Below, in pieces: positions 7,087-14,852 of a stretch of 15,168 bases of DNA. Under the pieces are notes generated by a model. It was not told the DNA's origin. It did not search any database and saw only the letters and a list, made by a program, of their open reading frames with translations. The stretch lies in NCBI GenBank assembly GCA_947313765.1, contig CAMZNQ010000126.1, positions 1 to 15,168 of the forward strand, in the 5' to 3' direction. The position numbers and the translations under genes are program-made. The first letter of the stretch is position 1, and every line of letters starts with the position of its first letter. The DNA is from an uncultured Sulfurovum sp. (GTDB lineage: Bacteria > Campylobacterota > Campylobacteria > Campylobacterales > Sulfurovaceae).

Positions 7087-8358
7087 TCATATCCAAAATA
7101 GAATAAAAAACCATATAAAAAATCCAAAAGATACAAGCAATAGAAGATAGAAGAGCCTTCTATCATAAAATGCAACTAAAGAGAGAGATAGATATGCAAA
7201 TCCAATATATGGGTCAATTAATCTATCTACAGTAAAAGTATCTAAGGTGAATAGTTTAAGTAGTATAGGGTCTAAAATATCTCCAAATCCAAATAGATGT
7301 AATATCATACTCAAAGGATAGAAGAGTGTAAAAAGTAACGATAAAATAGGAGATATGAGTTGTAGTGGAGTTGTAATAGGAAATATTATATGCACTACAG
7401 GTAACATTAAAATAAAGATTCCAAAAGAGATAATAGTTGTCATAATATATTTATTAACATGGGAGAAATAGTTAAGTAGTAAAAATATATAAAATACTCC
7501 AATAACAGATAACCAAAAGGATAAAGAGAGAAGAAGATGAGGAGATATTGTAATTATAATAAATGTAATAGTTACTAAAAAGGAGAGTGTTAAAAGCTCA
7601 ACTCCTAAAATTAATAGAATCCAAGTAGTTAAAAGCATCACATAGGAACGAATCAGAGAGGCAGGAGAGTCTACAAAAATTAGATATAACAGCAAAATAA
7701 CTAAAACAGAAAAACCAATATCTATCAAATCAAATCTATATGGAAAATAGTGTTGCTGAAAGAGTCTATAGATAGGTCTTAATAGAAAAAATAGTATTGT
7801 TGATAATATCCCTAGATGAAATCCACTTAAAGCAATCAGATGACTAACTCCTAGTTTTGAGACTTGACTTCTCAACTCTCTCTCTAAAGGCTCTGCCAAA
7901 AATATGGCATTATAGAAATTTGATAGCATACTATTGCTATGTTGAGTCGAGATATAATCTATAATATTTGACTTTAAATTACTATCTTTTGGAAAAATTC
8001 TATTAATCTTTGAGGAGATGAAAGATGTTCCAAGATATTCATGAAATTTCATCTTAGAATTTGGAAAAAGTTTAACTCTCAATCTTTGATGTATCTCTTT
8101 TGATGGAATTGAAGTTATTGTAAAAAATTTCAAATCTAACTTTTGACTATATAGTTTAAGAACCGTAAAATGCTTCTTATCTCTATCTTTCTCATAGGCA
8201 TTAAGAACTTTAGTCTCTGTATAGTAAAATGGTTTATCTTTAAACTCTTGATAATCAATATATGTAACAAATAGCCTAATAGAGATTAAGATAGATAGAA
8301 AAAGCATAAAGAACCAAAACTCTTTTAAGGTTAAAAAAAGTTTTGGTTTATCAATCAT
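7087..8358 (-). CDS. comEC: ComEC/Rec2-family DNA uptake channel
   Basis: A 423-residue inner-membrane protein with about ten hydrophobic segments. The competence-domain signature SHLIALSGFHLG (172-183) is clear. It has an N-terminal membrane segment (about 14-32), an extracytoplasmic region (about 35-170), then the channel. The C-terminal metallo-beta-lactamase domain of Bacillus-type ComEC is absent, as known for the short ComEC proteins of Helicobacter and Campylobacter. It would carry single-stranded DNA across the inner membrane in natural transformation. The ATG lies 9 nt after the dnaB stop, and its ribosome binding site AGAAG overlaps the dnaB end, so it is co-transcribed with dnaB. 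Whether the cell is competent cannot be seen here. Confidence 0.9.
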   Translation of the reverse strand: MIDKPKLFLTLKEFWFFMLFLSILISIRLFVTYIDYQEFKDKPFYYTETKVLNAYEKDRDKKHFTVLKLYSQKLDLKFFTITSIPSKEIHQRLRVKLFPNSKMKFHEYLGTSFISSKINRIFPKDSNLKSNIIDYISTQHSNSMLSNFYNAIFLAEPLERELRSQVSKLGVSHLIALSGFHLGILSTILFFLLRPIYRLFQQHYFPYRFDLIDIGFSVLVILLLYLIFVDSPASLIRSYVMLLTTWILLILGVELLTLSFLVTITFIIITISPHLLLSLSFWLSVIGVFYIFLLLNYFSHVNKYIMTTIISFGIFILMLPVVHIIFPITTPLQLISPILSLLFTLFYPLSMILHLFGFGDILDPILLKLFTLDTFTVDRLIDPYIGFAYLSLSLVAFYDRRLFYLLLLVSFGFFIWFFILFWI

Positions 8359-8367
8359 AGAAAACTT

Positions 8368-10758
8368 CTAAATTGTAGATAAATCAATATTTCCCATATC
8401 TCTAGTATCTATATTTTTATCTTCATAATTTATATCATAAGGAGCATTGTCTCCTCTAAAACCAGCATCAACAAATCGTGTAAAGTTCTTTTGAAAGATT
8501 AAGTTCACTGTTCCTGTAGGTCCATTTCTATGTTTACCAATAATTAACTCTGTCTCCTCTTCTAGCTTTTTTATGAATTCATTTTTATACTCTCCACCAG
8601 AAGCCTTAGCCTTCATCTCTTTCTCTTTTTCTGCTGCCTCACGATAGACATCATCACGATATACAAACATTACTATATCTGCATCTTGTTCGATAGAGTT
8701 ATGAACTATAATATCATTGGCTACAAAATTATGCACTCTGTCAACAGTTAGATCATACGTTTTTTCTTTTTTATTCTCTTTGATGGAGATAATTTCATCC
8801 CAGTATATATCTGAATAAGCAAGATTATTATCTTTTTCAACATTTAGATTAACTCTATCAGGTGTTGCAATCTTATCTCCAACTTTAAGATTATCTAATC
8901 TAATCCATCCATCGACTCTATAAAATTTATGATTAGCAGTTGCATTAATAGTTTTACCTGATTTTGTGGTTAATTTATAAGTTATCTTCTCGCCTGAAAA
9001 AAAAGCATTGGTAATGGTGAAACTATTTACTTTCAAATCCTTATCCATAGATTTTGTTTTCATAGGAAGTAGATTTTTATTCTCTACAAGTTCATCTATT
9101 CTATAACGTTTCCCATTTTTAGAATCAACTATAATTGAATCTCCTGAAAGACAACCTGATTCACGTAAATCAGAAAGCATAGGACGTTTATTATCCCTAC
9201 TCTCTACACCACGATTTAGCTGTGAAAGTGCCAATATGGGAATCTCTAACTCTCTAGCTAACTGTTTTAATCCCCTAGAAATCTCTGAAATAACCTGCTG
9301 TCTACCCTCTTTATTATCTCCAGACATTAATTGTAGATAGTCAATAATTGCCATAGATATTTCAGGGTGTTGACTCTTTAGCTTACGTAATTTTGAACGA
9401 ACATGATGAATGGTAGCGTATCCACCATCATCTACAAAAAGTTTACGTTTTGCCATTCTATCTGTAGATTTAGAGAGGTGTGTCCACTGCTCATCAGTCA
9501 AATCTCCTACTCTAAGTTTTTGTAAAGGGATAGATGTCTCTGTAGAGAGAAGACGAAGCATCAACTGTTCTGCTGGCATTTCTAGTGAGAAAAAGGCTAC
9601 ACCCTCTCCACGCTCTATTGCTTTTTGAGTTATGTTTAAAACCAAAGAGGTATTGTGTGTAACTGTCATATCTTCAAGTAAAAATAAATTATTCCCATCT
9701 ATCTCAAAACCATAATAGTCATCTACTTTGTCATATTCTACTTTAATATCTGTATATTCTATCTCATCAGGAAAACTATATTTATCGGAATAACTAAAAG
9801 AGAGTTTTGAAAAATCTAATTTAGACTTGTACCCTTTATAATTACTCTTAAAATTAGATGACTTCTCTAAATATTCAGAAACCTCTATATTTAATACCTC
9901 TCCCTGTTTATATTTACCCTCATTTTTTGAACATTTAAGTGATAAAATATGCGACTTATTCACACGATAATCTATCCCTTTATTTTGTCGAACCCAATAC
10001 ATCTCTTCATTTCCACGAGCCAAGGAGAGAACTTTTCTTGGAGTAGAGTCATTACCCATTAATAGCTCTCCAACTTCGATATTTTCGACCTTTTTAAGCT
10101 CTCCAGAGTACATTAAAACCTTTGTACCTTTTCCAAAACATTTCCCCATTGCAGGACGTGCTGCGATAATTATCAAATCCCCTTTACCAAAACCTTGTGT
10201 TTTATCATTTAGATTATGAAATCCTGTATCGACTCCAAGGAGTTTTGAATTACCTAAAGCTTTAAGCCTCTTTATCTCATCAAACATAGATAAAGTAACC
10301 TCTTTAGAACCTCTAAAATCTTCTGAAGTTGAATTTTGAGTAATCTCATATAGCTTCTTCTCTACCAAATTCATAATCTCATCAGTAGGTAAATCATCTT
10401 CTATTGTTACTTTTTTAATGGTAGTTGCTAAAGTTGCCAAGGCACGTTTTGTTGAGCGAGATTTAATCTCATCAATATATGCATCTGTATTAGAGATTGC
10501 ATTTGCACTTAAGATATCAAGAAGTCCAACCTCATCATAATTATTATTTACCTTTAATTTTGTCTTTAAAAACTCTTCATCTATCGGTTTATCTTCACGA
10601 CTTAAATCCTCCATTGCCACAAAAAGATGTTGATGAAAAGGTAGATAGAAATCATGAGGTTCTAATTTAGATGCAATCTCTTCAAAAATTTGTGGGTCAA
10701 AAAGAATGGCTGAAAGCACAGCTCTCTCTATATTTATATTATACATATTTTCATTCAT
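8368..10758 (-). CDS. dnaB: Replicative DNA helicase DnaB containing two mini-inteins
   Basis: The 796-residue precursor becomes a DnaB of 481 residues when two in-frame inteins (residues 207-369 and 536-687) are removed. DnaB is the hexameric helicase that unwinds DNA at the fork. The N-terminal domain (about 1-105) and linker are normal. The RecA-like domain has the Walker A ARPAMGK (200-206) joined to T370-S371 only after splicing, FSLEMPAEQL (390-399), Walker B IIDYLQLMSG (471-480), LSQLNRG (511-517), LRESG (531-535) joined to SIEQDADIVMF (688-698), and GKHRNGPTGTV (741-751). A GAGGGG ribosome binding site lies 8 nt before the ATG, and 18 nt separate it from ispG. The unspliced protein would lack a contiguous P-loop, so helicase activity should depend on splicing. 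Confidence 0.97.
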   Translation of the reverse strand: MNENMYNINIERAVLSAILFDPQIFEEIASKLEPHDFYLPFHQHLFVAMEDLSREDKPIDEEFLKTKLKVNNNYDEVGLLDILSANAISNTDAYIDEIKSRSTKRALATLATTIKKVTIEDDLPTDEIMNLVEKKLYEITQNSTSEDFRGSKEVTLSMFDEIKRLKALGNSKLLGVDTGFHNLNDKTQGFGKGDLIIIAARPAMGKCFGKGTKVLMYSGELKKVENIEVGELLMGNDSTPRKVLSLARGNEEMYWVRQNKGIDYRVNKSHILSLKCSKNEGKYKQGEVLNIEVSEYLEKSSNFKSNYKGYKSKLDFSKLSFSYSDKYSFPDEIEYTDIKVEYDKVDDYYGFEIDGNNLFLLEDMTVTHNTSLVLNITQKAIERGEGVAFFSLEMPAEQLMLRLLSTETSIPLQKLRVGDLTDEQWTHLSKSTDRMAKRKLFVDDGGYATIHHVRSKLRKLKSQHPEISMAIIDYLQLMSGDNKEGRQQVISEISRGLKQLARELEIPILALSQLNRGVESRDNKRPMLSDLRESGCLSGDSIIVDSKNGKRYRIDELVENKNLLPMKTKSMDKDLKVNSFTITNAFFSGEKITYKLTTKSGKTINATANHKFYRVDGWIRLDNLKVGDKIATPDRVNLNVEKDNNLAYSDIYWDEIISIKENKKEKTYDLTVDRVHNFVANDIIVHNSIEQDADIVMFVYRDDVYREAAEKEKEMKAKASGGEYKNEFIKKLEEETELIIGKHRNGPTGTVNLIFQKNFTRFVDAGFRGDNAPYDINYEDKNIDTRDMGNIDLSTI
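8698..9153 (-). other. Mini-intein 2 of DnaB, at the RESG/SIEQ site
   Basis: A 152-residue intein (precursor residues 536-687). It starts CLSGDSIIVDS (C536), has block B ATANHKFYRVDGW with T607 and H610, block F TYDLTVDRVHNFVAND (667-682), and block G IIVHN with H686-N687, followed by S688. The ends closely resemble the Ssp DnaB intein of Synechocystis and sit at the same extein site (G/S before IEQDAD). No endonuclease domain is present, so it is a natural mini-intein close to the minimum splicing size. All catalytic residues are intact. Confidence 0.96.
9652..10140 (-). other. Mini-intein 1 of DnaB, inserted in the Walker A P-loop
   Basis: A 163-residue intein (precursor residues 207-369). 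It begins with C207 in block A (CFGKGTKVLMYSG), has a block B-like segment ending VNKSHILSL with H270, block F DYYGFEIDG (347-355), and block G ending THN (H368-N369), followed by T370 as the +1 nucleophile. It splits the host P-loop between K206 and T370. No LAGLIDADG or other homing endonuclease motif fits between the splicing blocks. The intervening part (about 277-340) is Ser, Lys and Tyr rich. A second cysteine, C276, lies close to block B. All splicing residues are present, so I expect cis-splicing. Confidence 0.95.
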
Positions 10759-10776: not shown

Positions 10777-11838
10777 TTATACGTTTGCTTTTGCAAATGC
10801 TTCAACTTCTGCTACAAATCTATCTACTAACTCATTTTCAGGTAATCTTGCCACAACTTCGCCTTTAAGCATTACTAATCCTGATTCTTTACCATAAGCG
10901 ATGGCTACATCTGCATGTTTTGCTTCACCAATGGCATTTACAACACAACCCATGACAGATACATCCATTGGAGTTTTAATGTGAGCTGTTCGTCTCTCAA
11001 CCTCTGCTACGGCACTAACTAAATCTGCCTCTATCCTTCCACAAGTAGGACAAGAGATAATGTTTAGCCCCTCTTTAACTCGTCCACTATCTTTTAAAAT
11101 GGCTTTTCCTACCTTTATCTCCTCTTCAAGCTCTCCTGTAATAGAGACTCTCATTGTATCTCCAATCCCATCAAGAAGAAGAGTACCTAAACCAATAGCA
11201 GATTTAACTGTTGCATGAAAAATAGTTCCAGCTTCTGTTACCCCTAAGTGAAATGGATAATGATTTTTAGGTCTCAACATTCGATAAGCATCAACTGTTC
11301 TCTCAACATCAGAGGCTTTAAGTGATACTTTAATATCTGTAAATCCTAAATCCTCCAAAAATTTAATATTATACTCTGCACTAGCAACCATACCTTTAGC
11401 TGTTGCTCCATATCTATCATCAAACTCTTTTTCTAAAGAACCTGCATTTACCCCAATACGAATTGGAAGATTACGCTCTTGACACGCTTTGACAATATCT
11501 TTAACACGACTCTTCTCTCCTATATTACCTGGGTTAATACGTATACAATCAACCCACTTTGCAGCCTCAAGTGCTAGTTTATAGTTAAAGTGAATATCTG
11601 CAATTAGAGGTAGAGAGATTTGCTCTTTAATCTCTTTTAGTGCTAAAGCATCTTCCATTTTAGGAACAGCCACACGAACCATATCTGCTCCTGCAAAGTG
11701 CAGACGATTTATCTGTTCTACTGTAGCCTCTACATTATTTGTATCAGAGTAAGTCATAGATTGTACAGAGATTGGAGCGTCACCACCTACAGCTACATCT
11801 CCTACATAAATTTTTTTAGTTGGGATTCTTTCTTTCAT
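10777..11838 (-). CDS. ispG: 4-hydroxy-3-methylbut-2-enyl diphosphate synthase (GcpE)
   Basis: A 353-residue IspG of the short bacterial type. This [4Fe-4S] enzyme makes HMBPP from the cyclic diphosphate MEcPP in the MEP pathway of isoprenoid synthesis. The N-terminal TIM barrel has VQSMTYSDT (25-33), IRINPGN (99-105), RIGVNAGSL (127-135) and GVTEAG (199-204). The C-terminal cluster domain has C263 and C266 in SCPTCGR, C298 in [10 protein letters not shown] and E305, the three Cys and one Glu expected as ligands. The ATG has a good AAGGA ribosome binding site. It follows priA by 62 nt and precedes dnaB by 18 nt; a TATAAC at 11880-11875 could be its own -10 box. Confidence 0.97.
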
Positions 11839-13844: not shown

Positions 13845-14327
13845 CTAATTGGTTAACTGCGTACATCCATTAGTATTTGTATTGTTTGTTTTAGTAGTAT
13901 CACATTCAAATTTACCTGAAACTACTTCAAACTTTACATCATCTAACATTGATTTAAAAATATATTGGTCACGTCCATCTTTACCTGTTCCCTCACTAAA
14001 AAACCATCTGTCTTTTTCATCTTCTGATTTCATTGAATACTCTAAAACGCCTACCCCTGTATCTCCATCAGTATCATAAAAATTTCCAAATACATTTGTA
14101 CTATCTCCAACAGCAGTCAGAACTTTAAAATCCCCTCTCAAAATCCTCTTCTGTCGCTCCATAGCCAAAGCATTTCTTATACTTGATACTAAAACTTTAG
14201 CCTTTGTAACCTGTGCATCATCTCTTGTGGCTGCTAGTCTTGGAATAGCTACGGCTGCTAAGATTCCGATAACTACTATTACGAAGACTAACTCTATCAT
14301 TGTGAAAGCTGATTTTTTGTTTTTCAT
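13845..14327 (-). CDS. Type IV pilin-like / pseudopilin protein with prepilin leader (1)
   Basis: A 160-residue protein with a class III prepilin leader: MKNKKSA cut before FTMIELVFVIVVIGILAA, with Glu at mature position 5 and a hydrophobic helix of about 20 residues. The residue at -1 is Ala rather than the usual Gly. The globular part has an Asp/Gly-rich loop (YDTDGDTGVGV, 84-94) that might bind calcium as in some pseudopilins, and two cysteines near the end (C142, C155) that could form a disulfide-bounded loop. AAAGG lies upstream of the ATG. It follows the second pilin gene by 21 nt and is the last of the group. It could belong to a type II secretion system or to a type IV pilus; no secretion or pilus ATPase is in the window to decide. 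Confidence 0.88.
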   Translation of the reverse strand: MKNKKSAFTMIELVFVIVVIGILAAVAIPRLAATRDDAQVTKAKVLVSSIRNALAMERQKRILRGDFKVLTAVGDSTNVFGNFYDTDGDTGVGVLEYSMKSEDEKDRWFFSEGTGKDGRDQYIFKSMLDDVKFEVVSGKFECDTTKTNNTNTNGCTQLTN

Positions 14328-14348
14328 ATTTTATATCCTTTTAATTAT

Positions 14349-14852
14349 TTATCTTTTTATTCTAATACCTGTAATAGCATGGTCAACTCCTGCACCTGTT
14401 GTTGCAATATTTTTTTTATCTAAAAGATAACCTAAATCTCCATCGACACTTCCTTGGGTTATGGAAGCTACTGTTGCGTTAATATTAGTCCGTTTATTAC
14501 CAGTAGCATCTGTAACTTTAAAGAATTTAAAAGTAATCGCCGCATCAGTAGCAGTCATGACTGCTTTAGTTTTATCACAAACAAAATAGTACTCCCCTGC
14601 ATCTCCACTTTGGGTAATGGGTATTGTTTGATATACTTCTATATTTGTCATATCTTTTAGATTAGTAGAATATTCTCCTTGTGAAGTATAATAAGTTGAA
14701 ACATCCCTCATAAAAAGAGTAATACTCTCTACACAAGTTGCTTCCTTTGCATCATCTATTGTCACTGATAGTCTAGGAATAACTATAGAACCTAAAATAC
14801 CAATAATCACAATAACAAAAATAAGTTCTATCATGGTAAATGCTTTTTTCAT
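14349..14852 (-). CDS. Type IV pilin-like / pseudopilin protein with prepilin leader (2)
   Basis: A 167-residue protein with the leader MKKA cut before FTMIELIFVIVIIGILGS, Glu at mature position 5 and Ala at -1. Cysteines C40 and C92 may form a disulfide. Its C-terminal part (about 128-167: ITQGSVDGDLGYLLDKKNI, then GIRIKR at the end) is closely similar to that of the partial gene upstream, so the two are tandem paralogs, while gene 1 downstream lacks this ending. The ribosome binding site is AGAAGAG. A hairpin with T-run lies 60-90 nt upstream, so it may be transcribed separately from the third gene. The transport or pilus system it serves is not shown by this window. Confidence 0.88.
   Translation of the reverse strand: MKKAFTMIELIFVIVIIGILGSIVIPRLSVTIDDAKEATCVESITLFMRDVSTYYTSQGEYSTNLKDMTNIEVYQTIPITQSGDAGEYYFVCDKTKAVMTATDAAITFKFFKVTDATGNKRTNINATVASITQGSVDGDLGYLLDKKNIATTGAGVDHAITGIRIKR

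Follow-up and report, generated by a model that had tools for sequence, protein, structure and literature searches.

The window, a stretch of 15,168 nucleotides from an uncultured Sulfurovum sp., carries the gene for a precursor of the replicative helicase DnaB (Table 1); the plus strand is full of stops over the same coordinates (8368-10758). The frame contains two inserts, inteins 1 and 2, whose removal leaves a contiguous extein of 481 residues (54.7 kDa), as the initial annotation had read it, beside 478-482 aa in orthologues without inteins at the same locus. The gene qualifies as a replicative DnaB, passing the curated cut-off of the NCBIfam model TIGR00665 (454 bits against 385, E 5e-136), and its product contains the Pfam domain DnaB_C (E 1.6e-90). 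None of the five families that Pfam lists for the 796-aa product at E<=0.001 is an endonuclease, so that both inserts, of 163 and 152 aa, are indeed free of such a domain.

Table 1. Features of the dnaB locus, in coordinates of the window.
Feature	Position	Strand	Remarks
ComEC-like gene, downstream of dnaB	7087..8358	-	Pfam Competence, E 5e-22
dnaB, replicative helicase precursor, 796 aa	8368..10758	-	ORF, NCBIfam and Pfam
C-extein, residues 688-796	8371..8697	-	
Intein 2, class 1 mini-intein, residues 536-687, 152 aa	8698..9153	-	Intein_splicing (Ssp DnaB-like)
Putative scar of endonuclease loss in intein 2 (VEKDNNLAY)	8815..8841	-	about 281 extra codons there in G002
Middle extein, residues 370-535	9154..9651	-	
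Intein 1, class 1 mini-intein, residues 207-369, 163 aa	9652..10140	-	Hom_end_hint (VMA/PRP8-like) type
Linker of intein 1, 25 residues (KSKLDFSKLSF...)	9754..9828	-	in place of the homing endonuclease of relatives
N-extein, residues 1-206	10141..10758	-	last residue is the Walker A lysine (ARPAMGK, 10141-10161)
IspG-like gene, upstream of dnaB	10777..11838	-	named from its sequence, not by family search

Intein 1 is inserted in the Walker A motif, between K and T (ARPAMGK/TSL, the slash marking the insertion point); it begins with CFGKGT and ends with VTHN, followed by T. Pfam assigns it to Hom_end_hint (E 2e-21), and a PDB sequence search matches its first 62 residues to PI-SceI (E 9e-14) and its residues 1-163 to PRP8 inteins (best E 7e-9); these VMA and PRP8 inteins are eukaryotic and reside in other host genes, but share with it the splicing part, the NxxH block B, and the HN end. 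With C1, the block B histidine, HN at the end, and T at +1, it is a class 1 intein; class 3, defined by the lack of a nucleophile at position 1 and a WCT triplet (PMC6195587), does not apply, as the intein starts with Cys. A second cysteine, Cys70, lies near block B. About 340 aa long in its relatives, the intein is here reduced to a mini form.

Intein 2 is inserted at ESG/SIEQ, begins with CLSGDS, and ends with IVHN, followed by S. It matches Pfam Intein_splicing (E 1.3e-27) and, over residues 2-151, the Ssp (Synechocystis) DnaB intein 1mi8 (E 2.5e-32); this match and the insertion site together make it an Ssp DnaB-type intein, and cyanobacterial DnaBs, for example P0186, carry an intein at the same site. 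The natural cyanobacterial copies are mostly longer, whereas intein 2 is a mini form that arose naturally and bears a recent scar, 152 aa against 433 aa in a relative. It too is class 1 (C1, block B ANH, HN end, S at +1), and its only cysteine is Cys1. Both inserts thus have the complete set of splicing motifs initially ascribed to them, with family matches far beyond chance; the block B histidine is present in both, but in intein 1 block B reads NKSH (N-x-x-H), not T-x-x-H as in intein 2 (ATANH).

The genome of the window (G000) is a metagenome-assembled genome (MAG) whose 379 contigs add up to 2.0 Mb, with a completeness of 83%. A search of these contigs with the DnaB_C profile (PF03796) found no second DnaB in this part of the genome; the other match, a 319-aa frame on contig C177, is RadA-like by sequence and not a DnaB. 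Among the 33 dnaB loci of relatives that were examined, 29 have a match to the IspG-like gene and 30 to the ComEC-like gene, and around dnaB the window contains genes of ordinary chromosomal kinds; the shared ispG-dnaB-comEC order and these neighbours identify the gene as the cellular, chromosomal dnaB. Its close relatives come from MAGs of Sulfurovum sp. and 'Campylobacteraceae bacterium'. Near the ComEC-like gene, the minus strand also carries two genes with prepilin-type N-terminal methylation motifs (13845-14852), the second of which, at 21.1 bits, falls just below the cut-off of 21.2.

Class 1 splicing proceeds by attack of Cys1, transfer to Thr or Ser at +1, and cyclisation of Asn. Both dnaB inteins are predicted to splice, two such reactions converting the 796-aa precursor to the 481-aa helicase. 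As long as intein 1 is in place, it separates the Lys of the Walker A motif from the Thr, and the precursor should thus not bind or hydrolyse ATP; as the two inteins are independent, both class 1, and sit in the only DnaB found, two splicing events would be needed before a normal helicase exists, in agreement with the original proposal. The low dN/dS within the inteins (0.073/0.63 for intein 1, G000 to G014; 0.020/0.22 for intein 2) is expected if splicing is still needed. A misassembly that created the inteins or removed their endonucleases, or a pseudogene from which DnaB is no longer made, might be suspected in a MAG of 379 contigs whose gyrB has a broken frame; this is hardly credible, however, for a clean 796-aa frame with every splicing residue in place and low dN/dS, in the only DnaB found in the genome, the more so as the 163-aa intein 1 recurs on other contigs (G014, G013a) and other short forms of intein 2 exist. 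We consider it very probable that the gene encodes a two-intein precursor which splices to the helicase, and that each of the inteins is a homing element in a stage of decay. The gyrB in question (contig C349, L070:3203-5008, minus strand) holds a third mini-intein, of 144 aa, at AGG/SAKQ; its frame breaks shortly after the intein (LNVEKDS, stop) and the rest lies in another frame, which may be either an error of the MAG or real.

In the following, HEN stands for homing endonuclease, mini for an intein of <250 aa (remnants such as P0130 and P0023 included), and states are given as site 1/site 2. The intein 1 region matches 2084 proteins at E<=1e-3 and the intein 2 region 1470; the best 120 of each were listed. 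For 127 of the 221 proteins listed, the middle extein shares at least 78% identity with that of the window; they are distributed over HEN/empty (65), mini/empty (16), empty/mini (13), empty/HEN (10), HEN/mini (7), HEN/HEN (6), mini/mini (5), mini/HEN (2), and unclear (3); all eight intein-bearing combinations of the three states thus occur among close relatives. The mini/mini DnaBs among the 221 are that of the window and P0011, P0012, P0023, and P0027. The double mini-intein arrangement is therefore rare, not unique; what stands of its supposed novelty is that no published account was found, in a literature search with subscription journals mostly outside its coverage and with 25 of 136 papers listed for Campylobacter, of inteins in the DnaB of Campylobacterota, Sulfurimonas, or Sulfurovum.

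Within the family, intein 1 matches occur in 42 of 175 genomes, 40 of them in DnaB (some on partial contigs); the other two are in a terminase-like protein (G080) and in one without a DnaB domain (G043). Unbroken matches to the 163-aa mini form are found in five of the 175 (G000, G013, G014, G167, G169). Intein 2 matches occur in 14 of the 175 genomes, and by position lie in DnaB in ten (G000, G002, G013, G016, G018, G022, G029, G048, G090, G094). A sample of the phylum has intein 1 matches in 22 of 397 genomes, one of which (G043 again) is not in DnaB. The genus offers 25 complete dnaBs (the partial genes of G010, G012, G013, G015, G016, and G018 are outside this set): 15 are empty/empty, five HEN/empty, and one each mini/mini, mini/empty, empty/HEN, HEN/mini, and empty/203-aa remnant. 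On their extein tree, these states require a minimum of seven changes at site 1 and of four at site 2. The inteins of the window belong to known families that are still being gained and lost in dnaB among close relatives. HEN loss at one site is not associated with loss at the other (Fisher p 0.64), and independent loss at each site thus explains the double mini state. A link between the sites in intein presence (Fisher p 0.0009, 161 family genomes, with intein 2 in nine of them against ten actual carriers in the 175) is not claimed: the test ignores kinship and leaves out G016, whose site 1 is off the contig, and independent tree pairs give it no support.

The history of intein 2 is most visible in G002, the sister of G000 on the extein tree (support 100/99), whose dnaB is empty at site 1 and has at site 2 the 433-aa intein with its endonuclease. 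Over the 152 aligned codons of intein 2, only 25 of 456 bases differ between the two genomes, and the synonymous difference (pS) is 0.193 (0.11-0.28) against 0.535 (0.47-0.60) in the exteins (permutation p 0.0005, the lowest value that 2000 shuffles can give, in one of 51 uncorrected tests). Intein 2, less diverged than the exteins, would have entered after the lineages split or have been exchanged between them; and as G002 retains the endonuclease in its copy, G000 would have lost it since. Intein 2 thus probably arrived horizontally, with its endonuclease, and then recently lost about 281 codons in frame, as judged from these sequence comparisons. Identity between the two genomes is high in intein 2 and the next 25 codons (93%), then drops; this hint of co-conversion on the 3' side falls in a stretch that is conserved anyway, and nothing similar is seen 5' of the intein. 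Among close relatives, intein 2 forms without a full endonuclease range between 139 and 203 aa, with eight different lengths and with differing junctions, which argues for many independent losses. The DnaB of P0013, with a mini intein 1, has an intein 2 whose reading frame ends prematurely within the endonuclease region, possibly a stage on the way to loss, or else an error of sequencing.

Intein 1 has an older background. Its mini forms have in common a linker of 21-25 residues with a mean identity of 0.48 (231 pairs, near-copies included), against a mean of 0.20 and a maximum of 0.44 in 150 draws of a shuffled control; a linker common to so many relatives implies that the HEN-less form is old. 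To this extent, the long vertical residence which the initial annotation proposed for both inteins, with ancient loss of both endonucleases, is borne out; as an account of the locus it is very improbable, since for intein 2 it is contradicted by the low divergence from the HEN-bearing copy in G002, and for intein 1 by the conflict, over 21 genomes, of its core tree with the extein tree, each of which rejects the other (AU p 5e-5 and 5e-52). The much more probable reading is that copies of the old, HEN-less intein 1 also crossed between species. Between G013a and G014, both HEN-less, pS is 0.257 (0.17-0.35) in intein 1 against 0.722 (0.62-0.83) in the N-extein; 31 of 489 bases of the intein differ and 24 of the 25 linker residues are the same, while 21% of the N-extein bases differ, with dense mismatches from 16 bases upstream of the insertion site. 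In its sequence, this tract looks like one left by homing. G013 has two dnaB pieces, and G013a is therefore a possible contaminant, yet it is distinct from G014. The window's own intein 1 shows a weaker contrast of this kind towards G014 (pS 0.425 against 0.595 in the N-extein, p 0.0085) and G013a (0.432 against 0.692, p 0.001), all such comparisons together comprising 51 uncorrected tests; towards G001, G004, G022, and G027 it shows no such contrast, and intein and extein show no difference in divergence in the pairs of G000 with G022, G029, G001, and G027.

Despite the common linker, a single clade of intein 1 minis is rejected on the splicing part (19 minis against 55 others, AU p 4e-9), in a test carried by few columns (135), from which the far HEN rows P0084-P0120 and the long-branch and other-type rows were left out beforehand, and whose group was named after the tree was seen; the starred branches by themselves are compatible with a single origin. 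Either cassette exchange or repeated loss may account for the minis. Inteins without HEN are held to be transmitted mainly vertically (PMC4071816); that intein 1 still spreads between species without an endonuclease of its own is, on these sequence patterns, a tentative proposal that we think more likely wrong than right. Such spread could be effected by cutting in trans, by HEN copies of the same family in neighbouring genomes or viral helicases, or alternatively by plain recombination after natural transformation.

Viral contigs are matched five times in the intein 1 search, and the three examined (L112, L114, L115) carry relatives of the intein in DnaB helicases, at the same GK/T site, with lengths of 333-347 aa and endonuclease domains present. 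Phage-type genes lie beside these helicases, for example for a terminase small subunit, a repressor, and a replication initiator. Their splicing parts are 65-69% identical to that of the window, while the exteins are distant, making phages possible carriers of intein 1; intein 2 has one viral match, at 36% identity. The ComEC-like gene beside dnaB would allow DNA uptake as a route. We infer that natural transformation or phages carried the inteins, and the order of their gains and losses is likewise a reconstruction.

A close parallel is the DnaB of Mycobacterium smegmatis, which likewise has two inteins, one of them a P-loop mini-intein whose +1 residue is the P-loop Ser/Thr (PMC6195587). The same source describes this intein, DnaBi1, as class 3, with no nucleophile at position 1 and an internal Cys118, whereas intein 1 starts with Cys and matches the VMA/PRP8-type Hint domain; two unrelated splicing classes thus use one site. 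The second mycobacterial intein, DnaBi2, keeps its HEN (same source), unlike intein 2. As splicing of DnaBi1 is inhibited by H2O2 through a Cys-Cys bond, and stress control has been proposed for it (PMC6195587), the inteins of the window might be domesticated, the host holding replication under stress by conditional splicing of DnaB, for instance through the redox state of Cys1. Intein 1 occupies the same P-loop position and has Cys70 near block B; but of the 119 rows selected with the block B pattern of the family only 3 have this cysteine there, 15 of the 25 close relatives are empty at both sites and show no conserved regulatory need, the unassociated HEN losses point the same way, and intein 2, with no cysteine besides Cys1, lost its HEN recently. 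Domestication, also suggested by the initial annotation, is for these reasons unlikely, and nothing was found that points to host benefit or regulation; decayed homing elements are the better description. In haloarchaeal MCM, another replicative helicase with two neighbouring inteins, single-intein and empty alleles are also common; there, both endonucleases are active (PMC10643990), whereas in the DnaB of the window both are gone. P-loop DnaB inteins of Sulfurovum, other Campylobacterota, Bacteroidota, and viral contigs share the family and site of intein 1, but mostly carry an endonuclease.

Further inteins were noticed in the same material. The DnaBs P0165 and P0171 have at the P-loop site an intein of 169 aa that is of a different type (TANH as block B, HNF at the end), together with a full intein at site 2, and the DnaB frame of L100 (G167), with a mini intein 1, stops 32 codons into the C-extein, inside an 84-kb contig. 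Inteins occur in frames resembling dCTP deaminase (L118, L119, and L124, in G008, G020, and G094), L118 having DCD, Intein_splicing, and LAGLIDADG domains in Pfam; in a helicase resembling UvrD, where two stretches belong to the splicing domain (L120, G025); in GyrA, with an endonuclease (L121, G002); and, as a Hom_end_hint relative of intein 1, in the large subunit of a terminase, probably of a prophage (L122, G080).

The empty, HEN-bearing, and HEN-less stages of the homing cycle are all found here in one gene of one genus, at two sites, and the sister pair G000 and G002 sets endonuclease lost against endonuclease kept. The tempo of endonuclease loss, and the travel of inteins without HEN, thereby become directly testable; and in the double mini-intein DnaB an essential helicase would naturally contain two orthogonal splicing domains as a compact pair.
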